64,000 nucleotides of DNA from Apium graveolens. Taxonomy: Eukaryota > Streptophyta > Magnoliopsida > Apiales > Apiaceae. Shown here in pieces: positions 407 to 29,389 of this stretch (position 1 is the first letter of the stretch; each line of letters begins with the position of its first letter). The notes under the pieces are model-generated. The model was given only the letters and a program-made list of their open reading frames with translations, ran no database searches and was not told the DNA's origin. The DNA is taken from positions 134,907,263 to 134,971,262 of the forward strand of contig NC_133647.1 in NCBI RefSeq assembly GCF_009905375.1, read 5' to 3'. The position numbers were made by a program, and so were the translations under genes.

Positions 407-3400
407 TGTGGCACCCTCCAAACCCGGGTCAGAAGTTTGGGGTCCACAACACATACACTATATATGAACCTGTATAAGAAATATTATTAGCAATGACCCT
501 GCTTTATATAACCACGGATCGCAACAGGTTAAAGTATGAAAATAGGCCACAACCTTAACTTTATTACAACGTATCAAATCCCAACTAATTAAACTTACAA
601 CTGGTAATGAAATTATTCTTAAAATCTTACTATCCCACGACCGTAATAATCTCCTGCTAGCTCGATCCAACTCAATCTGGAATCATAGCTCGTACATTAA
701 ACTGGGAAACCTCGCTATCAACCGTATCCTTCTTAACTGTAGAATACATAAAAATTCATAAGAGTGAGCTAACTAGCTCAGCAAGTCATGATAACGATAT
801 TAAGATTAAACAATGATCAAACGAGATGATTCAGAGGAATCAAGTTTCTTGTTAAACAATTATTAGAATTGGATATTTATTTTGAATTTTGAAACCAAGG
901 TTAGGCTGTTGATTAGTCAAACACTAACCCCGAGCAAGGCATACAGCTCTGCTCCATAAACTGGATCCAAGGTGCACATTGGCCAAATTCGACCACGAAT
1001 CTGGTCTGACCACGAATCTGGTCCACATAAAGAAAACTATCCAATTCTAAAGCAGTTCAATATGATAAATGGTATAACTCAATGAAATAAGTTCATCATT
1101 AACAGTAATAAAACATTTGCATATAAAACATTTGCATAAGAGCATGGTGCAATGCATGGGTACCACTATTGTATATCAAAGTATGTAAAAGAAAAGGCCT
1201 CCATCCTGTAAGGGAATCAGGTATTAGATGAATCAAGGATTTTTCAAGGTTTATCTCTTTGATGTTATACAAAATGGTTGGGGTATAAAAGTTTTTGTAT
1301 GTTCAAACAATTCGGTTCCAGTGTTTGGTAGTTATATGTTTGGAGAGTAGTATCATAATTGTGTGGTTTCGTATCTGGAAATCAATAAGGGATGGTTAAC
1401 AAAGAATAGGGTTTACGGCTCAAAGACCAAATGATGTGATCCGGGTTCAAGGCTGTATGATTCAAAGTATTCACAATATAAAACAAAACTATTTTGAATA
1501 CTTAACAATATGTCACAAGAGAATTTAGAAATGTTTGCACTATATCTCGAGAAAGGTTTAGAAGTACTTGCCTTGCAGGGCTTTATAACTATTACTGATC
1601 GACTCTGAGCCGACTCTGTCACTCAGGCTTTATTGTCTATCCACTAGATAACCCTGGATCCGACCTCCACACTTAAGTCCTTTAATTGGAACCTTACTGA
1701 GCTTTTCGACTGACCATCAAATTATCTTTCATCCAATGCCAATTCTTGGGCCTTCCGACTAGAACCTATTTAGTCGAAATACCCTAATTTAGACATTCGA
1801 TTATGCTTGACATATCCTCACTAACAATCTACCTGAACGTTAACAAAACCCGACTCGTAACATACTTCATAGAATAATACACATATCAATTAGGGTTCAC
1901 GTTCTCAAAAAATGATTTTAGCAAAGTATTTCATCACAACACATAATTAGGTTCCGTATAGAGTATTCTTATATAATCGATCGACGTTCCGATAGTCATC
2001 GGGTACGACCTTGCGTTTCCGTAATTTAATTTTCCGGAAATCGGGTAGCACCTCCTTTGATTATCGGCTAACCCGTCGAATACAGTCGACGTCAATTCAA
2101 CAACAACAACCAATCAATCCTACAATCCAGAACTTTACAAATCCCAATTGCAATCACAATTTAATTCAAGCACCAATCAACAATTACAACTCAAAATCCA
2201 ATAACCTCGAATAAAAATATTCATCTACTATTTTGCATCGACTTACAAATAAAATTTATACATTTATTATCTATTTATTTTTAAATATTAGGACTCAGAA
2301 TTGATTCATCACGGTCCACCGTCGGCTCGCCGAGGCTCATCGCCGACGGCTGCAAAATTCAGGGAATTTCGCCGATAAGAAAAATTTATGCAAGTAATTA
2401 TAATTTACTTCACAAATTTTACTCAACGAATTCCCTGTAGAAAATAAAATAAATAATTTAACAAGTATTTCCACAAATTACAACCGGAATTATTCAGAAC
2501 ACAAACAATACACGCACGACCTTGTGGCCGGAAAATAAAACAGCCACAGAGAAGAACTATAGAAAGGCAGGCGGCAACATCAAAGAAAGAAGCTACCAAT
2601 CCCGACTCCCACACTCACATATGTGCACACACGAAAATACACACATATATACGGAAGAATAATCGAAACCATCGGTAATAGTTACCGGAGAAGCAGGCGG
2701 CGCCGGAAAATACAGCGGTAGAAAGAGCAGGAAACAGGGAAGACTCACAGATGAAACAACAGGAAGAGAAGAACAAAGATATGAGAAGGGAAATCAATCC
2801 CGTCCGAGAGAGAATAGAGAGATTAAGCCCCCTTCCCTGACTGCTTTTATTTCTCTGTTATATTTTTCTTTTGTTGTTTTTGTTTTTTTTATTAACTAAT
2901 CTGCAGCCAACACGTGGCTCTCACAATCTTATTTGACTGCCACATGTCTCGTAATTTGGGACACGTATCAATAAACGTACTGCAACCCCTTTTCTGGTTC
3001 GCTATCTCACAATTTATCGAGCCAAGTTGCACATAAAATAAATTCAGAAAATTATCAAAATAGTCTCAAAATATTACAAATATACCGAAGTTAATTAAAA
3101 TATAAATTTCATTATTTTAAAATCATTTCTGAAACGCAATTTATACCCGCTTTTATCAGTTAAACGAATTAATTATTTTAAAATCATTTCTGATCAGTCA
3201 CGCACAAACCCCGAGCAAGGCACACAGCTCTGCTCTATAAACTGGATCCAAGGTGCACATTGGCCTAATTCGACCACGAATCTGGTCTGACCACGAATAT
3301 GGTCCACATAAATAAAACTATCCAATTCTAAAGCAGTTCAATATGATAAATGGTATAACTCAATGAAATAAGTTCATCATTAACAGTAATAAAACATTTG

Positions 3401-9566: not shown

Positions 9567-10786
9567 TGAAAGAGATATGTCCTAAGTCCAATCACGTATG
9601 AGGATTTAGGAATAACTTTTATGTAATCTGTTTTGATTTCATTGATATTAATAAAAGACTTGTTTTGTTTTTATTACGGGCTCTATCTATTTAAGTGTTT
9701 AAATAAGATATACCATAGTTTAGAGTAAAGCTTTTTATGGATTATGATGAGATCATAATAGTGAGACCTAAAAGATGATAACTCTAAACTTAAATAGTTC
9801 CTGGTCATATGATTACTAACTGGTAATTAATAATCCGCAAAGATCGGTACATACTATGTTTGTTTCATTATGAAGGATGTCTGTTCTCATAGATATTTGT
9901 GTGGTGACACTATAGCTAGTATGTAGGTGCTTATTATAGAATAAGTTCACTGAACATGACTCGCACAGCTGAACAACTGATGGAGTTCACTCACGTGTCA
10001 ACAGTTGTTCACATAGTGATAGTTGTACAAGTATCCTTAGACTTGAGGTCATCATAGTCATCTTGTGTACACTGAACTATGCTTTGGTTTAGTTCTTAGT
10101 CTCCAGGGATAATTATTAGGGCTCTACTGGGTATAGGAATTTGTACACGAAGATAGTGTATGATCAATAAAGGATCTACCCCTTCCAGTGAAGGAAGAGA
10201 ATGTTCAAAGCTGATCCACTTATGCTAGTTCAGGAATCTATGGCCAGAGTGAATGAAATTAGAAAGGAGTTTTTAATTTACATAGAACTGAGCATAGTGA
10301 ATGGGAAAGCAAATGATTAAATTAGATAGGCTTGACACAAGATCCATGCCTTGTATTTAATCAGGACATTGGAGGGTAGAAGGAGTTAATTGTACGGTAA
10401 CTATTCACTGAATAGGTTCTTGGTATTATAAGCAGTGAATTCATATTATCCGGATAGTCGCGATATGTTGAGAAGCATCACTCAAGATGTAGAATAAATA
10501 TAATTAATCAGTTAATTATATTTAGTGAATTTTAGTATTCATGTAAATAATTAATAAAAGTTTATTATTATTTATTTCTACTACCGGCATAATATTGAAC
10601 CTACAGGGTCACACCATAAAAGAATATTTTCTTTGATGAAATAATGAGAGAGAGAATTATTTTCTAAATAGTTAAGAAAAAGAAATAATGATTAAAATAG
10701 TTTTAATTATTATTAAAGCATTTTATGAAGATAAAATCTGTGGGTTAATATATATAAAGATATAATATAAAACCCTAGGAGAGCCC

Positions 10787-10794
10787 TATAAATA
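10787..10794 (+). promoter_or_regulatory. Probable TATA box in the D 5' LTR
   Basis: TATAAATA lies in the context CCCTATAAATAGAATG, about 490 bases before the LTR end. The position and sequence fit the U3 promoter of a copia LTR. The transcription start is not visible from sequence alone. Confidence 0.55.
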
Positions 10795-11138
10795 GAATGA
10801 GATGGATGGCTCATAAGATTTTTACACACAATTTTGGTTTTGTGAAAACCTAACCTCCATATTCTTCTTCTCTCTCTCTCCCCCAAAACTCCATTTTATA
10901 AAAGCTTAGTTTTATAAAAAGGTTCATCGAAGCGGATCGTTCTTGGTGGATACCGGTAGAGTGCTTCACACACTGAGGAGCAACTGCTAGCACTCCACTT
11001 TTATAAAGCTTCGATTCACGAGGTATGATTTCGATTCCTCAGTTTTTCCCTTTTATATGTTTTTTCTATATGTGCGGTATATGGTTTTTACGGAATAAAT
11101 GTTATTTCACGCTTCCGCTCATCCGTAAATTCCTTCAT

Positions 11139-11150
11139 TGGCATCAGAGC
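11139..11150 (+). other. First primer-binding site copy of element D
   Basis: TGGCATCAGAGC differs by one base from TGGTATCAGAGC, the usual plant complement of the initiator-Met tRNA 3' end. It is the upstream of two copies. Confidence 0.65.
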
Positions 11151-11281
11151 TATTCGATTCACAAGGTATGATTTTGATTCCTCAGTTTTTCCCTTTTATA
11201 TGTTTTTTCTATATGTGCAGTATATGGTTTTTACGGAATAAATGTTATTTCACGCTTCTGCTCATCCGTAAATTTTTTCAT

Positions 11282-11293
11282 TGGCATCAGAGC
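11282..11293 (+). other. Second primer-binding site copy of element D
   Basis: TGGCATCAGAGC again, directly next to the start of the element leader. Being adjacent to internal sequence, this is the more natural functional site. The upstream copy then lies inside the LTR as defined by its outer boundary. Confidence 0.65.
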
Positions 11294-13243
11294 TAGGTTC
11301 TACATATAGAGATTCATATAAAAAAATTCAGATTTTTTTATGCATGTATGGATTTATTATGATTTTTGCAAGTTTATTTGGATTTAATTATGAATTAATT
11401 CGAAATAATTTTTGCATGAGATTTTGACTACTGATCTGGGTTCTACAAGTATTGTAGATTATCTAGGTATTTTTTTCATAATTTTGTGATGTGTAGATTA
11501 TTTGTTATGAATTTTTCAAAATTATTTTAATTAAAAATTCATGAAATAATTATGCATGTGAATAATTATGATTAAAATTTGCACAAGGACCCATGGCTGA
11601 TTTGGTATTTTTCTGCTACTCCCTGATTTAAGAAATCATATTATTTTGATTTTTATTAATTTATTAATTAACTGTTAATTAATTTATTAATAATAAAATT
11701 AAAATAATAAATTAATAAAGAGTTATTAAGGAAGGGAGTAAAAGGAAAGGGGGTTAGTTTTTTATCTTGTAACGGCTGACTATTCACACGGCAGGAGAAG
11801 AAGGAACTGACAGAACAAGAAAAAAAAACCTGATGTTGCCAACGGTCGGCCAGGTGCGGGCGCGTGAGTCGCACGCGCGGGGTGTGTTGCGCATTCCGTG
11901 AATGTGTTACACACTGTTGTGCATTTACGGAATGCGTTACACGCGTAAATGGCTCAACAGTGTTGTACGCATTACGTACATGCGTTACAGCCCGTATATC
12001 CACATTAAATTTGATTTTTTTGGAGTTTCGTAACTCCGTTTTGGGCGTGCAATATACCGTTGGATTCGTTTTTCCGAGACGGATCTAATGGAATGGTCAA
12101 ATATTTTTTATATAAAAGTTTTGAACTGTTTATATTCCCGAAAGTGTTTTAAAGCATGTTTTAATTGTTTTAATTGCTTTTAAATGCTATAATAAATCCA
12201 TACATCATTATATCAATGTGTGACATGATATTACTTGCATGCTTACTTGTTTATTCATTTTTATATATGAGATATATGCATGTGTTTACCATGCGATGAT
12301 AGATTTAGGTGAACTTAAATCAATATAAGGCGTGCTCTAGAAAATCTAGAATAGGAATCGTTTCTTGCCTTGACAATAATATTATGAATACAATCATGAG
12401 ATTCTTGTGTTTATGAAACACGTAATTAAATATGAATTTTCAATTTTGAGAGAAAGGATGATTCTGTCAACAACAGATTTCTATCTGTAAGAAAGGGTTA
12501 TTAAGTGACGCCTCTTGACAATGCTCCACCCGATCTGGGAATCATCTGATTATCGATTATTGATTTGAAATATTTAATTTAAAAGGAAGAATCTCTTTAT
12601 AATATGATTATGATTGTAACGTAATATAATCCCTCTAAAATTAAATAATATCAAGTAGTAATTGGCTAATGACACAACGGGCTTGTGTCGGTCATAGCCT
12701 TCCAACATGATAGAAAGTGGTTCTTATTTTTAAATCATTGTCGTTTCGTGCTACAGCCGAGGGCTTTGATTTCAAAATAAGGAATACTTGTCTATTACAT
12801 AGAGATGTATATATTGAATTAGAATCTAAAGGTCGTTACGTGCCACAGCCGTGGGCCGTTGGAGACTGATTCAATTGTACGAAATGTTGGGTTAGACTTG
12901 ACTTAGAATATTGAGTTTGTCGTGCTACAGTCGTGACTCAATTATTCAAGAGGCTAAAATTATATTAGGGAATAACATAAGATGTAATTGACAAGAGTTT
13001 TCTGCCTATTGAACATCACATGACGTTTCGTGCTATAGCCGAGGTTGTGTAATGGAATGTAGGATCCCTATTCCCACTAGCATTATGAATGCCTAATTTT
13101 CACTTAGGGGGTTGTATAAATTAGATAAACTAGTGGGAGCCACTTATGAATAAAGACCCGATTCATATAGTGTTTTGAAATGAAATTGAATATTTGCTAA
13201 GTGTTGTTATGTGTTTATCATTTACAGATTTACTATATTCGTT
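11294..13243 (+). other. Untranslated leader of element D
   Basis: This stretch of about 2 kb between primer site and gag has no coding homology that I recognise. It is AT-rich apart from a GC-richer patch at 11840-11970 with repeated GCGTTAC and CATT words (two overlapping open frames there look fortuitous). Its last 600 bases hold a row of stem-loops described separately. A leader normally carries dimerisation and packaging signals. Confidence 0.6.
12660..13063 (+). repeat. Array of stem-loops sharing a CGTGCYAYAGYCG loop
   Basis: Four hairpins share the loop core CGTGCYAYAGYCG but have different stems. First: TTATTTTTAAATCA (12724-12737) pairs with 12767-12780, 13 of 14 positions. Second: ATTGAATTAG (12813-12822) pairs with CTGATTCAAT (12866-12875), all ten positions including one G-T. 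Third: TTGAGT (12911-12916) pairs with ACTCAA (12936-12941). Fourth: CATCACATGAC (13014-13024) pairs with GTTGTGTAATG (13044-13054), ten of eleven positions, extended by CCTA/TAGG. A fifth hairpin upstream (GGCTAATGACACAA with TTGTGTCGGTCATAGCC, 12663-12699) has a different loop. Confidence 0.8.
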
Positions 13244-13672
13244 ATGTCTTATGCACTATCACTCCGGAGTATACTAGATGCTCACAAGTTGACTGGTCCT
13301 AATTTTGCTGACTAGCTTCGAAACTTGAGAATTGTTCTCAGGGTTGAGAAGCTGGAATATGTGCTTGACTCACCTAAGCCTACTGAACCTGCTAACGATG
13401 CACATAATGATGAATATGTTGTGTATTGTAAGTGGATAGATGATGCAAATGTTGCTCAATGCATCATGCTAGCTTCCATGAACATTGAGCTACAGAAGCA
13501 GCATGAGCATATGGATGCTCACACTATCCTTATGCATCTACAAGAGTTATATGATGTGGCAGGGAGGACAGCTCGATATGAGATATCGAAGGAGCTGTTC
13601 GGTTGTAGGATGTCTGAGGGATCATCCGTGAATGACCATGTACTTAAGATGATCAATTTGATTGAACGTCTT
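13244..13672 (+). pseudogene. N-terminal part of gag of copia element D
   Basis: The frame opens at ATG 13244. It reads through a typical copia gag start (motif LDAHKLTGPNFAD, then LRNLRIVL) and a region with HILMHLQELYD-like spacing, ending in LIERL at the insertion point. One in-frame TAG at 13313 replaces what is normally Trp. Gag would coat the RNA genome in the cytoplasm. The frame is continuous with gag resuming after the nested element C: the last codon before insertion and the first after the target duplication join without a shift. So the gene was open here, apart from the stop, when C arrived. Confidence 0.8.
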
Positions 13673-15820
13673 TGTAATAACCCCAATTTTTTATTTTTTT
13701 TTGGAAATTTTTGAAACCCTTATGAATAGTGTTTTTGCTGAATGAGAAAACTTTTCATGCCACACTATGTAGGGGTTCTGTTATGGATATTCTGAGATTT
13801 TATTAGTACTCTATATGGTATATAAGTGTATGTAAAGATCGTCAGAATCCAATTCCGAACACTTTGATTTTTCCCGAAAATCCACTAGATACGGAAATAA
13901 TTGAGTATAAGGTAACATGATTAAAAGGATTTAAATTCAAGGATTATAAGAGAGGATCATAAAAGGAATATAATGTATGGAGAAAGGTTAAGGGAACCCA
14001 AGTAATAAGATCCCGGGTATGATCCCTCAAACGATAAATGAGAACGAAAGTTAAGCGAACCGTATAACAGATCAGCGGTCATTAGGCAAACAATTAGGAA
14101 GTTAATCAAAGAGATTAGAGGGGATGATGTCATCCAACCAATAGAAAGAGGACAAAGGAGGGGTGATGGCATCACAAAGTGATGCAAGCATGACATAAGA
14201 GGGAAGGAAATGTGGTGGAATATTAACCACACAAAATCAAGGGTAAATGGGTAATTGACCTAAAACAAAACAAAAACAACCAACCAAAAAGCAAAACAAA
14301 GCAAAACACAAAAATCTCTCTTTCTTCTACATCTTGCTCTCGGCTTTTTGAAGAAATGCAAGGATGGGAATTCCAAAACCCAAGCTCCACTTAATCATAA
14401 TTCAACAGGTTTGTTTCTTTAGCTTCCATAATTCATAACTAAGATGAGCCATAAGTTTAAGCTCAAGATTCCATGTTTAACATAGCTAATTAATTCATCA
14501 AAGTTCTCGGTGAATAGTGTTTTCAAGAAACTAACTTTGTGTTTTCTTATGTTTCTTCAAGATCCAAGCTTAGTAGAGATAGTTAGTGGCTATTTAAGGC
14601 TTCCTAAGTGATTCTCCACTCTCCAAGGAAGGTATAAACTACAAACCCTAGCTTTAGTTTTGAGTAATTAGGAATGAATATGTTTGATATAGTATAAGTG
14701 AAGCATGATGCTTGATTGTTTGAAGTTTGGTTGAGTTGTAGAGATTAGTTGGTTTTGTGGTATTGTTGGAGTTGTAAATCTTGATAAGTAGTTAAAGAAC
14801 CTAAGTAAAGCTTTTAGTTTATGTGGGGAATAAGTATAAATGGTTAATGTGGAGTTGTTGGGGCTGTTATGATGTGGTTTGGATGGATGTTGGTTGTATG
14901 ATTGATTTGGGGTTGAATTGTGGTTGGTTTTGAATGGTTTAAATTTGGGAAATCGCGTAAACATAGCCGTCGTAACGTCCGATTTTCTTTAGACTGTTTT
15001 TGTGCATAACATTAGGACCCGAGAACCCCCTGCTAGATTATGACCATTGCCATGTCTAGATAGCTCGTGTTACGAGCTTCGTTTTGATATGTAGTTCGTT
15101 CGATTCCGATGCACGGTTTAGGAGAAACGACCGTTTAGGAGAAACCTTGGTTAAGGACCTTAAATGACTAATTGGGGTAAGAAAAATTTATGGTAAGTGT
15201 GTTAGGCAGTTGGTAAGACACTGCGAGTTCATCGCCTTAAAACTCGTAAAGGTTAAATTATTAAAAATGGTGGAGCCGAGGGTACTCGAGTGACTTAAGA
15301 GAATCAATAAGCGCAAAACAAGCGTTAGAGTCTAAGTTAGTTAAAGTATAGATTTACAAGTGACTTTGGTTTAATTCCAACTTACTTGTTGTTTATAGGT
15401 TACCAGACTCGTCCCGAGCCTTTTTTCACCCCAAGTCGCTCAGGCAAGTTTTCTACCCGTTATACTGTTGTTGTGATGTATATATGTATATGCATTATCT
15501 TGCGGTAGATGCATGTTGGTTAATTAGAAAATGTTGCGATATATTGTAGCATGTTATATGGTACATATGCATGCCTGTTTTGTATTCTTGCCATATATAT
15601 CTGTTGGTTCAGTTGATAATACCTATGCTAGAGGATGACAGTATTTTGCATATACCCTTATTATAAGGACCCAAAAGGTGAAAACATTTTCTAAAACCGG
15701 GAGTCGAGGATCCCGAGTAGATTTTGTATATATGTATATATATATATAATTATATATATATATGGTTATAGTTTTCAAAACTATTAATCGAATAAGGGTT
15801 ATTCGATAACTTTATATTAT

Positions 15821-16035
15821 TCATTGAATATTATTTCGAATATTCATCCGAGGACTTATGACTCCTTTATTTTATTATTGAATATTATTTCGAATATTCA
15901 TTCGAGGGCTTATGACTCAGTTTATATTATTTAATGATTATTAATTGGATAGTCATTTGAGGATGTATTGACTCCTTTATTTTTAATGAATATTATTTAT
16001 AATATTCATTCGAGGTATTATGACTCCGCTTATTA
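15821..16035 (+). repeat. Four palindromic tandem repeats in the C 5' LTR
   Basis: Units of about 52-54 bp each have an AT palindrome followed by a version of TCGAGGACTTATGACTCC. In the first unit TGAATATT (15825-15832) faces AATATTCA (15839-15846). The third unit replaces the stem with ATGATTATT and GATAGTCAT and keeps only part of the pairing. The same block is present in the 3' LTR at about 24813-25026. Confidence 0.75.
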
Positions 16036-16511
16036 CTGAAATATATTCTTTATGTTATTAAAGAATAAGGTGTCAATAATCAAACTTATTTTCGATTATT
16101 CAAATAAAGATAGTACTTTTATATAAGTATATCTTTGGTAATTTAATATCCATTTCAAGTATAAGTTTTAATACTTCTACTTCGATTATTTTTATAAGGA
16201 TTATCTTTATGAGAATATTATTTAAATAATAATATTCAGACATTTTCTAAATATATTGGGAATGATTTACTTCATTAAATCAGCATTACTCCAAACACTC
16301 TTTAAAGTGTTTTCGAGTCTTCAAAATGATTTTTAAAAGTTAGAGCGGATCCCAAAACTCATTTTTATATTTAAGATCTTCCTTTTAAAAAGGGGATTTA
16401 AATACTCGCTCAAAACCTGAGGGATCCGGCTGTATGGTGTATTTTATATTCGCAACAAGGTTGCAGTTTTTGTAAATGAATTGATTACTTACCCAACGTT
16501 CGAGAAGTAAG

Positions 16512-16625
16512 TCCATCTATTGAGTCGGCATAAGCAACATGGGCTCAGTGGGCGTCCATGATAGTGTAAGTGGCTCAGTGGGAGTCCATCAAATGCATAA
16601 GTGGCTGAGTGGCAGTCCAGCATAA
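16512..16625 (+). repeat. Three-copy GGCTCAGTGGGNGTCCA repeat in the C 5' LTR
   Basis: GGCTCAGTGGGCGTCCA, GGCTCAGTGGGAGTCCA and GGCTGAGTGGCAGTCCA are spaced about 35-40 bp apart, with a weaker relative (GTCCATCTATTGAGTCGG) just before. The same set is in the 3' LTR at 25504-25619. Role unknown. Confidence 0.75.
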
Positions 16626-17608
16626 GGTCCTATTGTGACCAGGGTGATGACCAGTGGGGAATTCGTCCATCTACTAGTAGAAAAGGTTACTTATTGGTAT
16701 CTTTGCCTGATCAGCGAGATATCTGGTTTATGCCAAAATTCTTTTCCTTTCCAAAATTCATTGGATGTTCCAAACTCTGTTCATACTTTACATGACAGAG
16801 GTTTTCAGGAAATGTATAAAGAAGATGTATATGTGGATATATATATATATATATCAGAACTTAATGAAGTATATCATAACTTCATTTCCTTTAATAATAT
16901 TTCAAAGATTTAATCTATTCAAATCTTGTCTTGTAGTCTCATCTATGTGATGAACTGTTGAAAGCTCATTATACTTTGAACAGTGGTAGTTCAAGTAGCT
17001 TTATAAATGATATAAGCGTAGTGAAGTATTTGGTAACTTCATCCCTTGTTTTTACTTATATCTAGTAAGTAATTATCTTACACATGATAAAAGATTCTAG
17101 TAAGTATCCATTTAGATACTTATATTATTGTTATCACTATATATTATCTTGCGAGCTGTAAGGCTCACTCTTGCTTTATTTCTTCATCACACAACAACAG
17201 TTAGGAAAGATGGCCAGACTCCAGCAGACCCAGCGCAAGTGCGTGGGAAGCGTCCCGCGTCTTCCCGATGATGTTGTAGCTGCTATAGCTGCAGAGGTAG
17301 ATCTATTGGTAGACCAGGCACTCTACTTTTGAGAATCAAATTATGTATAATTATAACTTGTGGCAGATAATGGCAATTAACTGTAAATTATCAAGTAATC
17401 ATTTTGGGTTGTAATAACTTTTAAATTATGGATTCAAAGACTTGTACTTATTTCAATTTCATCTCTGAGACTATAACGGGTTGTGGCGTGTGTTAGTGTG
17501 GGGTCACAGCATAAGGTTATTTATTATTAATTAAGTGAAGTGATATTGTGGAAAAAAAGACCGTGATGACCCGGATCCCCGACCCCGGATCTGGGGGTGT
17601 TACAGAAA

Positions 17609-23174: not shown

Positions 23175-26100
23175 TGTAATAACCCCAATTTTTTTTTTTT
23201 TTGGAAATTTTTGAAACCCTTATGAATAGTGTTTTTGCTGAATGAGAAAACTTTTCATGCCACACTATGTAGGGGTTCTGTTATGGATATTCTGAGATTT
23301 TATTAGTACTCTATATGGTATATAAGTGTATGTAAAGATCGTCAGAATCCAATTCCGAACACTTTGAATTTTCCCAGAAATCCACTAGATACGGAAATAA
23401 TTGAGTATAAGGTAACATGATTAAAAGGATTTAAATTCAAGGATTATAAGAGAGGGTCATAAAAGGAATATAATGTATGGAGAAAGGTTAAGGGAACCCA
23501 AGTAATAAGATCCCGGGTATGATCCCTCAAACGATAAATGAGAACGAAAGTTAAGCGAACCGTATAACAGATCAGCGGTCATTAGGCAAACAATTAGGAA
23601 GTTAATCAAAGAGATTAGAGGGGATGATGTCATCCAACCAATAGAAAGAGGACAAAGGAGGGGTGATGGCATCACAAAGTGATGCAAGCATGACATAAGA
23701 GGGAAGGAAATGTGGTGGAATATTAACCACACAAAATCAAGGGTAAATGGGTAATTGACCTAAAACAAAACAAAAACAACCAACCAAAAAGCAAAACAAA
23801 GCAAAACACAAAAATCTCTCTTTCTTCTACATCTTGCTCTCGGCTTTTTGAAGAAATGCAAGGATGGGAATTCCAAAACCCAAGCTCCACTTAATCATAA
23901 TTCAAAAGGTTTGTTTCTTTAGCTTCCATAATTCATAACTAAGATGAGCCATAAGTTTAAGCTCAAGATTCCATGTTTAACATAGCTAATTAATTCATCA
24001 AAGTTCTCGGTGAATAGTGTTTTCAAGAAACTAACTTTGTGTTTTCTTATGTTTCTTCAAGATCCAAGCTTAGTAGAGATAGTTAGTGGCTATTTAAGGC
24101 TTCCTAAGTGATTCTCCACTCTCCAAGGAAGGTATAAACTACAAACCCTAGCTTTAGTTTTGAGTAATTAGGAATGAATATGTTTGATATAGTATAAGTG
24201 AAGCATGATGCTTGATTGTTTGAAGTTTGGTTGAGTTGTAGAGATTAGTTGGTTTTGTGGTATTGTTGGAGTTGTAAATCTTGATAAGTAGTTAAAGAAC
24301 CTAAGTAAAGCTTTTAGTTTATGTGGGGAATAAGTATAAATGGTTAATGTGGAGTTGTTGGGGCTGTTATGATGTGGTTTGGATGGATGTTGGTTGCCAG
24401 ACTCGTCCCGAGCCTTTTTTCACCCCAAGTCGCTCAGGCAAGTTTTCTACCCGTTATACTGTTGTTGTGATGTATATATGTATATGCATTATCTTGCGGT
24501 AGATGCATGTTGGTTAATTAGCAAATGTTGCGATATATTGTAGCATGTTATATGGTACATATGCATGCCTGTTTTGTATTCTTGCCATATATATCTGTTG
24601 GTTCAGTTGATAATACATATGCTAGAGGATAGCAGTATTTTGCATATACCCTTATTATAAGGACCCAAAAGGTGAAAACATTTTCTAAAACCGGGAGTCG
24701 AGGATCCCGAGTAGATTTTGTATATATGTATATATATATAATTATATATATATATGGTTATAGTTTTCAAAACTATTAATCGAATAAGGGTTATTCGATA
24801 ACTTTATATTATTCATTGAATATTATTTCGAATATTCATCCGAGGACTTATGACTCCTTTATTTTATTATTGAATATTATTTCGAATATTCATTCGACGG
24901 CTTATGACTCGGTTTATATTATTTAATGATTATTAATTGGATAGTCATTTGAGGATGTATTGACTCCTTTATTTTTAATGAATATTATTTATAATATTCA
25001 TTCGAGGTATTATGACTCCGCTTATTACTGAAATATATTCTTTATGTTATTAAAGAATAAGGTGTCAATAATCAAACTTATTTTCGATTATTCAAATAAA
25101 GATAGTACTTTTATATAAGTATATCTTTGGTTATTTAATATCCATTTCAAGTATAAGTTTTAATACTTCTACTTCGATTATTTTTATAAGGATTATCTTT
25201 ATGAGAATATTATTTAAATAATAATATTCAGACATTTTCTAAATATATTGGGACTGATTTACTTCATTAAATCAGCATTACTCCAAACACTCTTTAAAGT
25301 GTTTTCGAGTCTTCAAAATGATTTTTAAAAGTTAGAGAGGATCCCAAAACTCATTTTTATATTTAAGATCTTCCTTTTAAAAAGGGGATTTAAATACTCG
25401 CTCAAAACCTGAGGGATCCGGCTCTATGGTGTATTTTATATTCGCAACAAGGTTGCAGTTTTGGTAAATGAATTGATTACTTACCCAACGTTCGAGAAGT
25501 AAGTCCATCTATTGAGTCGGCATAAGCAACATGGGCTCAGTGGGCGTCCATGATAGTGTAAGTGGCTCAGTGGGAGTCCATCAAATGCATAAGTGGCTGA
25601 GTGGCAGTCCAGCATAAGGTCCTATTGCGACCAGGGTGATGACCAGTGGGGAATTCGTCCATCTACTAGTAGAAAAGGTTACTTATTGGTATCTTTGCCT
25701 GATCAGCGAGATATCTGGTTTATGCCAAAATTCTTTTCCTTTCCAAAATTCATTGGATGTTCCAAACTCTGTTCATACTTTACATGACAGAGGTTTTCAG
25801 GAAATGTATAAAGAAGATGTATATGTGGATATATATATATATCAGAACTTAATGAAGTATATCATAACTTCATTTCCTTTAATAATATTTCAAAGATTTA
25901 ATCTATTCAAATCTTGTCTTGTAGTCTCATCTATGTGATGAACTGTTGAAAGCTCATTATACTTTGAACAGTGGTAGTTCAAGTAGCTTTATAAATGATA
26001 TAAGTGTAGTGAAGTATTTGGTAACTTCATCCCTTGTTTTTACTTATATCTAGTAAGTAATTATCTTACACATGATAAAAGATTCTAGTAAGTATCCATT

Positions 26101-26592
26101 TAGATACTTATATTATTGTTATCACTATATATTATCTTGCGAGCTGTAAGGCTCACTCTTGTTTTATTTCTTCATCACACAACCACAGTTAGGAAAGATG
26201 GCCAGACTCCAGCAGACCCAGCGCAAGCACGTGGGAAGCGTCCCGTGTCTTCCCGATGATGTTGTAGTTGTTATAGCTGCAGAGGTAGATCTATTGGTAG
26301 ACCAGGCACTCTACTTTTGAGAATCAAATTATGTATAATTATAACTTGTGGCGGATAATGGCAATTAACTGTAAATTATCAAGTAATCATTTTGGGTTGT
26401 AATAACTTTTAAATTGTGGATTCAAAGACTTGTACTTATTTCAATTTCATCTCTGAGACTATAACGGGTTGTGGCGTGTGTTAGTGTGGGGTCACAGCAT
26501 AAGGTTATTTATTATTAATTAAGTGAAGTGATATTGTGGAAAGAAAGACCGTGACGACCCGGATCCCCGACCCCGGATCTGGGGGTGTTACA
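23175..26592 (+). repeat. 3' LTR of element C
   Basis: 3418 bp, same termini as the 5' LTR and closely similar along its length, with a handful of substitutions by eye. The main difference is a missing block of about 513 bp: TTGGTTG at 24393 continues straight into CCAGACTCGTCCC, which in the 5' LTR is separated by about 14892-15404. Confidence 0.92.
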
Positions 26593-26597
26593 GTCTT

Positions 26598-27227
26598 GGA
26601 CAACTTGGTTTTGCCATGGATGGGGAGCTGAGCCAAGACTTGGTCTTGCAATCACTTCCGGGTTCATTTTCGCAGTTTGTTGTGAACTTTCACATGAATA
26701 AGCTGGATATCAGCCTGGCTGAACTCCACAACATATTGAAGACTGCGGAATCGAATTTTCCCCCTAAGAAGGGTTCTGTTTTTCTAATTGGTGAAGGTTC
26801 CACTCCTAAGATAAGGAAGAGGAACCCTTCCAAGAAGAAGAAAGTAGGTGAAGAAAATCCGGTTCCACCAAAAGCTGAAGACCCCAAGAGCAAAGTTGTT
26901 TGCTCTCACTGTAACAAGGTGGGGCACTGGAAGAGGAACTGCAAGGTTTACCTTGCAGAGTTGAAGAAGAAGAAGGGGAGTGAGACTACCGCTTATGATT
27001 CAGGTATGTTCATGATAGAAATGAATATGTCATTAAGTCAAATTTCTACTTGGGTATTAGATATCGCCTGTGGTTCTTACATCTGTAATTCGTTGCAGGG
27101 ACTAAGGAGAAGTAGGACTCTTGAGGAAGAGGAGGTGATTCTACTGATGGAAAATGAAGCAAGAGTTGCTGCTGAAGATGTACGATCATTTCATTTACAT
27201 ATGCCTACGGGCAAGACTATTGTTTGA
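26598..27227 (+). pseudogene. Gag C-terminus and protease start of copia element D
   Basis: The frame resumes right after the GTCTT duplication and stays open to 27227. It reads a copia gag end (LVLQSLPGSFSQFVVNF, then LxELHNILKTAE), a basic spacer, and a zinc knuckle CSHCNKVGHWKRNC at 26901-26942 with all CX2CX4HX4C residues. A protease start STWVLDIACGSYICN follows. In copia proteases the catalytic word is D-T/S-G/A; here it is D-I-A, so the Thr/Ser is lost. The protease then degenerates. The zinc knuckle would bind RNA in the virus-like particle. Confidence 0.85.
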
Positions 27228-28955
27228 AATAATTGTTATTTTGTTTCCTCAATTGTAAGGAATATTGTTTCTATTCCTATGTTGGATTTGGATGGTTTTT
27301 CATTTTATTATTAAGAATAATGAATGTTCTATCCTTAGAGATAATATTCTTTATTGACGTGGTATTTTAAATAATGGTCTGTATGTATGTGACATAATTT
27401 ACTTCAGATTGAAATAACTAATAAAAGAAAAGGGATGATGAAAATCTCACTTTCTTTTGGCACTGCAGACTTGGTCATATTAGTGAAAATAGACTGCGGA
27501 CATTGCATAAGGAAGGGTTACTTGACCCCTTTTGATTTTGAATCATATCCTACATGCGAGTCTTGTCTATTGGGTAAAATGACCAAATCTCCATTTAGTG
27601 GACATGGAGAGAGGGCTGCAGATTTGCTAGGATTGGTACACATAGATGTATAAGGACCAATGTCTACGCAAGCCATGGGTGAGTTTTCATACTTCATTAC
27701 TTTCATAGATGATAGATCTAGATTCGGATATGTGTTTGATGAAACACAAGTCTGATGCCTTTGAAAAGTTCAAAGAGTATAAGTAAGAAGTGGAGAAACA
27801 AACCAAAAATGGTATTATAACTCTTCGATCAGATCGAGGTGGTAAATACTTGAATGGAGAGTTTCTGGATTATCTCAAAGAAAAGGGTATAGTCTCCCAG
27901 TGGACTCCTCCAGATTTAGACATGGTTCGGTCCATGATGAGTTATGTGAATCTTCCAGTATTCTTATGGGGTTATGCATTGGAAACCTCAGCATATTTAC
28001 TGAATAAGGTGCCTTCCAAATCTGTCCCTCAAACTCTATATGAGATATGGAAAGAAAGGAAACCGAGTCTTAAACACGTTAAGATTTGGGGATGTCCAGC
28101 TTATGTCAAGAAAGTTGACCCAGATAAGCTGGAATCTTGATCCGTAAAATGTAATTTTGTGGGATATCCTAAAGAGATTTTGGGGTATTACTTTTGCACC
28201 GATCATCGGGTGTTTGTCTCCAGACATGCTACCTTCTTGGAAAAGCAGTTTATCATTAAAGGAAACAGTGGGAGCAAAATTGAACTTGATGAAGTTCAAG
28301 AAGCACAAACTACTACGAATCAAGTGGAAACACCTGTTCAGACTGAACAACCTTCTGTGGAACAGCCCATTCGTAGGTCAGGGAGAGTGTCTCGCCAACC
28401 TGAGAGGTATTATGGCCTTGTCATTGAGAATGACAATGAGTTGTCAATCATTGATGATGACGACCCTAAGACCTATAATGAGGCTATGAGTAGTGTTGAC
28501 TCAGAGAAATGGCAAAGTGCCATGAAATCCGAAATGGAATCTATGTATACGGTATACAAAAGAAAGATTAGAGCAGATGGCCAGGTGGAGACCTTTAAAG
28601 CCAGGCTTGTGGCAAAAGGATTCAAACAAAGGCAATGGATTGACTTTAATTAAACCTTTTACCTGTAGCCCTGTTAAAATCAGTTCGGATTTTGCTTGCG
28701 ATTGCTGCTTACTACGACTATGAGATCTGGAAAATGGCCAGATGGTTTTCTTTCCAAGGGAAATGAAAACCTAGTGTGTAAGCTGCTGCGAACCATATGT
28801 GGTTTAAAGCAAGCTTCTCGTAGATGGAACATCCGTTTTGATGAGACAATCAAAGAGTTTGGTTTTATCAAAAACATAGATGAACCATGTATCTACAAAA
28901 GGGTTAGTGGGAGCGCGGTAACATTTCTTGTATTGTATTGAAAGAGAGTTGACAC
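27228..28955 (+). pseudogene. Integrase and RT remnants of copia element D
   Basis: The GAG-pre-integrase motif (LGHISE, then YPTCESCLLGK) is at about 27455-27580. The integrase core follows, with the first Asp in VHIDV and the second in LRSDRGG. Near 27912 the sequence jumps from QWTPP to LDMVRSM, skipping the segment with the catalytic Glu. The late integrase and linker are well kept (KIWGCPAYVKK, RRSGRVSRQPERY). The RT start (VYKRKI, FKARLVAKGFKQR) lacks about 20 residues before it. The DVKTAFL motif is missing near 28735, and KLLRTICGLKQASRRWN is kept. At 28941 the frame stops at FLVLY, exactly where YVDD should begin. Frameshifts also occur at 28140 and 28650. Confidence 0.85.
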
Positions 28956-29060
28956 ACATAACAACATAGCAGACCCACTCACTAAGCCACTTTCTGAAAG
29001 TCACTTTGATCGTCATAAAGACAAGATGGGTATTAGATACCAGAGTGATTGGCTTTAGTA
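28956..29060 (+). pseudogene. C-terminal end of copia D pol (RNase H tail)
   Basis: The frame reads THNNIADPLTKPLSESHFDRH followed by MGIRYQSDWL and a stop. This is the usual C-terminus of copia polyproteins (NxADPLTKPL). Everything between FLVLY and here, i.e. the RT active site and nearly all of RNase H, is absent. The retained tail directly precedes the polypurine tract. Confidence 0.8.
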
Positions 29061-29072: not shown

Positions 29073-29297
29073 TGAAAGAGATATGTCCTAAGTCCAATCA
29101 CGTATGAGGATTTAGGAATAACTTTTATGTAATCTGTTTTGATTTAATTGATATTAATAAAAGACTTGTTTTGTTTTTATTACGGGCTCTATCTATTTAA
29201 GTGTTTAAATAAGATATACCATAGTTTAGAGTAAAGCTTATTATGGATTATGATGAGATCATAATAGTGAGACCTAAAAGATGATAACTCTAAACTT
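29073..29297 (+). repeat. Truncated 3' LTR of element D
   Basis: 225 bases identical or nearly so to 9567-9791. Similarity stops after CTCTAAACTT, where the 5' LTR continues AAATAGTTCC but this copy changes to TATATAGTAAT, the start of unrelated sequence assigned to element F. The remaining 1.3-1.5 kb of LTR and the right target duplication are missing. Confidence 0.85.
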
Positions 29298-29389
29298 TAT
29301 ATAGTAATATCTTGCATTGGTTCAAGAATTTGAAACCTGAGATATGTGAGTTGGACCATCTTCAGAGATTGCTATGAAAGCAAGATATT

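Follow-up and report, generated by a model that had tools for sequence, protein, structure and literature searches.

Why should the leader of a plant LTR retrotransposon present the same small structure four times, each time on a different stem? The question is raised by the DNA between the primer site and gag of element D, which lies in the window (the whole 64,000-nt stretch that was analysed). The answer that we favour, and to which we give about an even chance, is that the array serves the element's own Gag as a multivalent signal, confined to the unspliced genomic RNA.

D is a Ty1/copia LTR retrotransposon, as judged from its gag, its CCHC knuckle, its integrase-side SH3 domain and its LTR with primer site. 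The parts that define it are:

9567..11281, + strand: 5' LTR of D, its end inferred from the primer site
11282..11293, + strand: primer site TGGCATCAGAGC of D, with a second copy at 11139-11150 inside a 143-bp tandem duplication
13244..13672, + strand: start of the gag of D, up to a nested LTR element (Retrotran_gag_2, E 5.8e-5, below the Pfam cut-off)
26532..27227, + strand: later part of the gag of D with the CCHC zinc knuckle, after the insertion (zf-CCHC above the Pfam cut-off)
29073..29305, + strand: truncated 3' LTR of D, from repeat comparison

The start of the 5' LTR matches the truncated 3' LTR at 98.3% over 233 nt. The primer site, which we take to be complementary to the initiator tRNA-Met, is one mismatch from the common plant site, as expected of Ty1/copia. 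A leader of about 2 kb separates it from the gag AUG at 13244, where an ATG is present in 36 of the 37 family copies compared below. Pfam finds SH3_retrovirus in one piece just below the cut-off and another just above it, the protein relatives of D bear copia names, and Apium graveolens proteins match its pol piece with 82-95% identity over 32-51% of that piece. Structure alone fails to separate most plant copia lineages, according to the accessible part of PMC6317226.

The tandem duplication (11010-11152 and 11153-11295, 95.8%) doubles the end of U5 together with the primer site. The nested element within gag has long, near-identical repeats (13673-17605 and 23175-26593, 98.6-99.4%), and D resumes near 26532. 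Around 28900-28960 D seems to be without most of its reverse transcriptase and RNase H, the frames skipping directly from part of RT to the end of pol.

The array occupies the downstream half of the leader:

12664..12700, + strand: fifth hairpin, without the tip, a candidate array member only
12733..12771, + strand: hairpin H1, core 12747-12759, ten outer pairs, lower stem out to 12708-12798
12825..12863, + strand: hairpin H2, core 12839-12851, lower stem out to 12807-12881
12907..12945, + strand: hairpin H3, core 12921-12933, in D with two of its inner pairs broken
13015..13053, + strand: hairpin H4, core 13029-13041, with a pair (13017/13051) compensated between subfamilies

The core CGTGCYAYAGYCG is present in four exact copies, starting at 12747, 12839, 12921 and 13029, and the window holds no further match at up to 2 mismatches. 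Shuffled sequences give a mean of 1.03 matches at 2 mismatches and 3 of 100 shuffles reach 4, so that the word count is weak evidence by itself, whereas the genome-wide control given below is strong. The first-pass annotation had taken the core for a plain loop. Rather than being single-stranded, it folds into an apical hairpin of its own, CG-(bulged U)-GC-YAYA-GY-CG, with two pairs outside and then a 2-nt 5' bulge. From base to tip, the complete model has ten outer pairs, this 5' bulge (UU in H3, GU in the other three copies), four pairs, the bulged U and two more pairs, of which the last, C-G, closes a YAYA tetraloop.

H1-H4 align over 39 columns without a gap and in one common register form 8, 9, 8 and 9 of the 10 outer pairs, which bears out the initial description of four stem-loops with a common core and stems of their own. 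In the outer stems 34 of 40 cells pair and 9 of the 10 pairs show two-sided change, against 28-46% pairing in slid registers. For the whole model 56 of 64 cells (87.5%) pair and 10 of 16 pairs show two-sided change, against 25-46% when slid by 1-3 columns, although such slid controls are somewhat biased in favour of a model that was built from these same four sequences. When arms are swapped among the hairpins the cognate set ranks first of 24, and none of 200,000 random quadruples of leader positions reaches it. A descriptor combining a C-YAHA-G tip, the bulge and the pairing fits 4 of the 71 tips on the + strand of the window, exactly H1-H4, and 0 of the 91 on the - strand; among the other loci, only L026 and L027 have a fitting tip, one each and the same in both.

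Folding energy supports H1 and H2 strongly, H3 and H4 less so. With 30-nt flanks shuffled, 1, 0, 76 and 52 of 500 shuffles equal H1, H2, H3 and H4 respectively, and in a spanning-pair test 1, 0, 0 and 296 of 1000 do so. Two of the six inner pairs of H3 are broken in D (G.G and U.U), and H4, which is no better than shuffles by energy, is distinguished just by its register and its relatives. The fifth hairpin, reported earlier as perfect, does exist but contains a C.A mismatch at 12667/12696 and is equalled by 15 of 200 shuffles. Outside the array, the upstream half of the leader has a very strong hairpin at 11866-11956 (-44.4 kcal/mol, 18-bp arms, GCATTCCGTGAATG-like), and at 13072-13139, between the array and gag, lies a 10-bp inverted repeat, CCCACTAG/CTAGTGGG, which where variable still pairs in nearly all copies.

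Stems that differ and yet keep pairing had been read as an RNA structure with a recognised tip, placed between primer site and gag. That reading is favoured by the two-sided changes, by the relatives and by the non-Watson-Crick cells of H1-H4, of which nine are G.U and one is A.C, making sense RNA the better candidate; the function that we infer from it is taken up below. We give only the faintest chance to the view that the repeats act as DNA, as protein-binding sites or palindromes, or feed small RNAs, for which a precedent exists in the palindromic repeats of proposed DNA role in Sirevirus LTRs (accessible part of PMC2829016). A microRNA match in Rfam also falls at H1, at a sub-threshold 19.4 bits (gathering score 101.7), and the nine Rfam matches within 11100-13700 are each under their gathering score. 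Against these readings stand the two-sided changes and the G.U pairs on the sense strand, as well as the conservation of the tip and not the stem, the pattern in microRNAs being the reverse.

The array is spread through the 3.33-Gb host genome. The core occurs there 18,584 times forward and 18,856 times reverse (37,440), and the reversed core pattern, used as a control, 4 + 6 = 10 times. The first 36 places in the core list (L036-L071, all on contig C1) served as a sample of relatives, making 37 arrays with D. Each of the 36 has 92-96% identity to D across an alignment of 652 nt or more, with the four hairpins in place; damage is local and in single copies, such as the deletion of part of the apical arm of H1 in L067 and an altered H4 core in L062. 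Copies in which the word is kept and the stems are lost, the case that would speak against an RNA structure, were sought among these same-genome relatives and not found as a rule.

Stem variants common to several of the 37 arrays mostly retain pairing. Compensatory change, two-sided among the four hairpins of a single element, is found once between subfamilies as well, at the H4 pair 13017/13051, which is T-A in 24 arrays, C-G in 12 and C-A in 1 (D itself). Further variants that retain pairing are G-U/A-U, G-U/G-C and U-G/U-A in H4 and U-G/U-A in H2. Exceptions are the H2 pair 12830/12858 (A-U in 24, A.G in 13) and the H3 pair 12920/12934 (U-A in 12, U.U in 25 including D); the inner G.G mismatch of H3 is unpaired in all 37 copies. 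The stems are no less variable than their surroundings, with shared variants at 7.5% of outer-stem sites and 7.2% of spacer sites, while inner stems, tips and bulges have more shared variants than either.

The BLAST similarity of the relatives to D ends upstream of about 12050-12340, and 20 U5 stretches (L102-L121) have mostly short blocks in common with the LTR of D. The array half of the leader is thus the shared half. With 92-96% in that half and a patchy LTR, D and its relatives look as if LTR and leader halves had been swapped. In grapevine Noble elements leader length varies by large insertions and deletions (accessible part of PMC2576258).

The tips of the four hairpins vary in concert. 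The first base of the tetraloop is C or U, and all four hairpins agree in 24 of the 37 arrays (13 UUUU, 11 CCCC), a number reached by 0 of 10,000 permutations within columns, although array copies are related and neither this nor the following permutation figures are probabilities. Subfamily S1 has 19 of 24 arrays in agreement (0 of 10,000 permutations) and subfamily S2 has 5 of 13 (542 of 10,000), so that concordance is not significant in S2 alone. Among 70 control quadruples of other C/T sites the best gives 12 agreeing arrays and none gives 24. On a tree made without the apical modules the four tip sites change 2, 6, 4 and 4 times, with UUUU in both subfamilies, and the second bulge base is alike across H1, H2 and H4 in 29 of the 37 arrays. 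A common ligand is the best account of the concerted tips; recombination between copies or conversion between hairpins may also produce them.

If such processes were the whole explanation, the array would be a by-product without function, an ancestral hairpin having been duplicated repeatedly and its tips equalised by recombination or template switching. Recombination does occur, given the differing upstream halves of D and its relatives, and three hairpins of one further family, L019 (see below), are clear duplicates. We nevertheless find this improbable: the stems differ at nearly every pair and still pair, conversion of a 13-nt tip without its stem would be hard to achieve, and the same plan is met in four families.

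The spectrum of tips also bears on dimerisation, one of the roles that the first-pass annotation had thought possible. Kissing contacts between the tips of two genomic RNAs would suit the leader location, and the dimer signals of Ty1 lie near the 5' end (accessible part of PMC8396678). However, CACA, UACA, CAAA, CCUUC and CCAUC are not self-complementary, as the tip of a kissing loop should be. UACA and CACA dominate the 37 arrays and only UAUA, which is rare, could pair with itself, which makes a tip-mediated dimer highly improbable.

Arrays were also found in other families. A scan of GTDB contigs by copia alignment gave nine loci, all titled bacterial, which we read as eukaryotic contamination. 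Two of them, L018 and L019, have long open gag-pol frames and four hairpins each, with a C-CAAA-G tip at 811, 897, 981 and 1111 in L018 and a tip of the CCAYC-CCUUC-GGUGG type near 1768, 1863, 1934 and 2168 in L019. In a motif-blind test they give 4 and 3 equal tips respectively (0 of 1000 shuffles each, and 0 of 400 each in a stricter version). D scores only 2 in the same test, which 46 of 1000 shuffles reach (2 of 400 in the stricter version), and of six relatives hand-picked from the 36 five score 4 and one scores 3. The apical stem of L018 has two-sided change in 3 of 4 pairs. Its outer stems have no common register (3840 of 5000 random sets equal it) and its hairpins are weak singly (11, 264, 157 and 53 of 1000 shuffles as good). 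Copies 1-3 of L019 are near-duplicates, and its arm-swap test gives rank 2 of 24.

A second family of the host genome, E, was found by way of the L018 gag (131 matches scored of 52,101 candidates, identity 43-47%); across 30 E loci its gag has about 39-43% identity to the gag piece of D. In one copy, L072, the hairpins lie at -603 to -514, -326 to -237, -233 to -165 and -161 to -85 from the gag AUG, and in the two copies that were folded (L072, L085) three hairpins carry the tip word CACMCAUCGUG and the remaining one a variant. Three equal tips are reached by 0 of 400 shuffles, and the cognate arms rank first of 6; 75% of cells pair, against 30-45% when slid, and covariation is weak. D, E, L018 and L019 share one plan: ahead of gag, at a like position, each family's tip recurs on stems that differ. 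The gag of L019 is closest to matches overlapping family E (51-53%) and its tip resembles that of E. Thus L019 and E, apparently from different plants, have similar tips, whereas D and E have different tips in one genome. The unlike tips of D and E in a common host, together with gags that are about 41% identical, suggest that the reader is more likely the element's own Gag than a host protein.

Locus L017 was considered as further support and set aside, as it has a repeated unit with CAAACGTTGG-tipped hairpins yet lacks the four-hairpin plan. The unit lies in the leaders of two elements (2736-3025 and 10929-11107), its tip constant on unlike stems; the pol frame is open in one, and no N-terminal gag was found with the D gag pieces. 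In L022 and L023, whose leaders seem short, no array was found. L020 has just 138 nt before its gag AUG and was used for the acceptor alone, and L021 and L024-L027 were covered by generic hairpin scans only. The generic cluster scan misses the array of D because its tips differ; the other clusters that such scans returned are AT-rich LTR palindromes (L018, L026, L027) and short inexact clusters (L017, L018, L020). LTRs at L018:6252-6528 and L026:3826-4167 have AT-rich perfect hairpins with a constant three-base tip, GAG, on different arms.

Plant-like copia DNA (L017-L020, L026, L027; protein P0008) stands in public bacterial genome and plasmid records of Solirubrobacter, Streptomyces, Kitasatospora and Klebsiella, probably as contamination. 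Three matches came from plasmid records, the two inspected being plant-like pol without a listed gag; the gag of D found no match in plasmid records, and phage records gave none at all. Pattern matches in IMG/VR were rejected as relatives: each of the 16 loci has a single motif, lacks a primer site and does not resemble the window in sequence, so that we read them as chance, and protein scans of IMG/VR gave no copia relative.

In D, L018, L019 and E the array begins 511-607 nt and ends 85-181 nt before the gag AUG. In D it is flanked by splice-like sites, by which it might be removed from spliced RNA, as a retroviral psi signal is:

11163..11171, + strand: splice donor predicted within U5 (AAG|GTATGA), 116 nt upstream of the primer site
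13213..13227, + strand: splice acceptor predicted 16 nt upstream of the gag AUG (GTTTATCATTTACAG)

The acceptor AG is retained in 35 of 37 copies of the D family. An acceptor-like site precedes the gag AUG by 16 nt in D, 4 nt in L018, 6 nt in L019 and 0 nt in L020 (where it is weaker), and the chance of such a placement is about 2-3% each for D, L018 and L019. E has such a site too, and its form TGATTCTCAG|GATAAAATG is unaltered in 25 of 30 copies. On the donor side, the duplicated copy in D offers an equally scored GAG|GTATGA at 11023. The AAG|GT donor in U5 precedes the primer site by 116 nt in D, and such donors also stand 195 nt ahead of it in L019 and 109 nt ahead in L027. The donors of L017 are CAA|GTAAG at 177 and 134 nt, and those of L018 are AAG|GTGAAT at 250 nt and a weaker one at 132 nt, with no AAG|GT at the usual distance. 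The primer site could be placed in 16 of the 20 D-family U5 stretches (one weakly), and in 15 of these 16 the best donor, 107-123 nt before it, is AAG|GTTAGA (9), AAG|GTTAGT (1) or AAG|GTAAAC (5). Scored with hand-entered matrices, these sites predict an intron that would open at the U5 donor, close at an acceptor lying 0-16 nt upstream of the gag AUG, and enclose the array. This predicted intron, the concerted tips and the other families go beyond the first-pass annotation. Plant LTR elements are generally intron-free, with Ogre and EVADE as exceptions (accessible part of a 2025 review, PMC12786077).

The proximity of array and predicted acceptor could also mean a role in splicing or translation: part of the RNA might be kept unspliced, or ribosomes helped past AUGs, by hairpins close to the acceptor or by a host protein bound to the tips, 61 ATGs being present in the stretch scanned before the gag of D. 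A host reader would be expected to favour one tip, however, and the tips of D and E differ in one genome, which leaves this rather unlikely. The same difference weighs on the idea of an export element bound by host export factors, as in mouse IAP and MusD. Unspliced RNA, if the intron is real, needs to leave the nucleus, and the accessible part of PMC12786077 describes mammalian cases, but the four near-equal small hairpins contrast with the complex MusD fold described there, and we consider export unlikely.

A signal for Gag is the reading that we prefer. From the calculated hairpins, their pairing and spread, the concerted tips and the positions of the splice-like sites we infer binding, packaging and splicing as follows. 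The four hairpins would present one apical structure, the sequence of a stem being irrelevant as long as it pairs, and one ligand could bind four times. The element's own Gag would be the likeliest ligand, with its zinc-knuckle part making the contact. Spliced RNA, freed of the primer site, the array and many upstream AUGs, would be a clean Gag-Pol messenger, whereas the unspliced RNA would retain the primer site and the four tips and be selected as the particle genome. Four like sites might then serve as a multivalent nucleus for assembly.

The same-register stems with two-sided changes, and the repeated tips on differing stems in three further families, count for a recognition signal. The registerless outer stems of L018, its weak single hairpins and its atypical U5 donor, the duplicates of L019, the weak covariation of E, the non-significant concordance in S2 and the energy of H4 count against it, as does the failure in vivo of tip-based packaging signals in satellite tobacco necrosis virus (STNV; accessible part of PMC6475782). 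A broader proposal, possible in our view but somewhat doubtful, is that plant copia families bear a private RNA barcode: one tip repeated about four times in a leader intron, its repeats evolving together and in step with the Gag of the family, on stems that are free to drift. By such a barcode genomic RNA would be told apart from messenger, and own RNA from foreign, and splicing would settle the competition of translation with packaging.

Little is known of how plant LTR retrotransposons select the RNA for their particles. A compact array at tens of thousands of genomic places, with natural tip variants, makes recognition of RNA by Gag directly testable, and D and E, with different tips in one host, offer a ready test of specificity. 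The concerted tips would document the co-evolution of a protein with its RNA as it has happened in nature.

Among known systems, the coat-protein operator of MS2 resembles the D tip in having a single-base bulge in the 5' arm two pairs below a four-base tip. It differs in its bulged A, its ANYA tip, its single copy and its bacteriophage context, and there is no sign of relationship. In the open-access literature, covered through titles and abstract openings and with subscription journals mostly outside it, no such array is described, and six exact motif words have no match in open-access papers. In the accessible main text of the 2025 review (PMC12786077) the words stem-loop, hairpin and dimerization are absent. 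Sireviruses share with the array repeated dyad-symmetric motifs in plant copia elements, but theirs lie mainly upstream of the LTR TATA box, have a CGG-CCG signature and a proposed role in transcription; by the definition in the accessible part of PMC2829016 the array, with its leader location, constant tip and different arms, was rejected as a Sirevirus palindromic motif.

The AxxA signals of STNV come close in form, being several hairpins with a common tip, variable stems and proposed binding of capsid protein. They belong to a virus with other proteins, however, and in vivo data weighed against the tips (accessible part of PMC6475782). Yeast Ty1 offers a cis-acting 5' RNA structure in a copia-type genome, with preferential Gag binding, but its proposed packaging region has a pseudoknot and palindromes (PAL sites), and repeated constant-tip hairpins are not described in the accessible part of PMC8396678. 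Barley BARE is, like D, a plant Ty1/copia element, and it has separate RNA pools for translation and replication, with mention of conserved dimerisation and packaging signals. Its pools arise through promoters, capping and a splice that favours Gag, and the accessible part of PMC3735527 describes no hairpin array. If the intron of D is real, it would add another separation of messenger from genome to the promoter-based one of BARE.

The psi signals of retroviruses, such as SL1-SL4 of HIV-1, offer a further comparison. Like them, the array consists of conserved RNA stem-loops in the leader near gag, and like them it would, by prediction, be carried only by unspliced RNA. It differs in presenting one tip about four times on unlike stems. 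In retroviruses, moreover, Gag is made from the unspliced RNA, whereas here the spliced RNA would be the Gag-Pol messenger.
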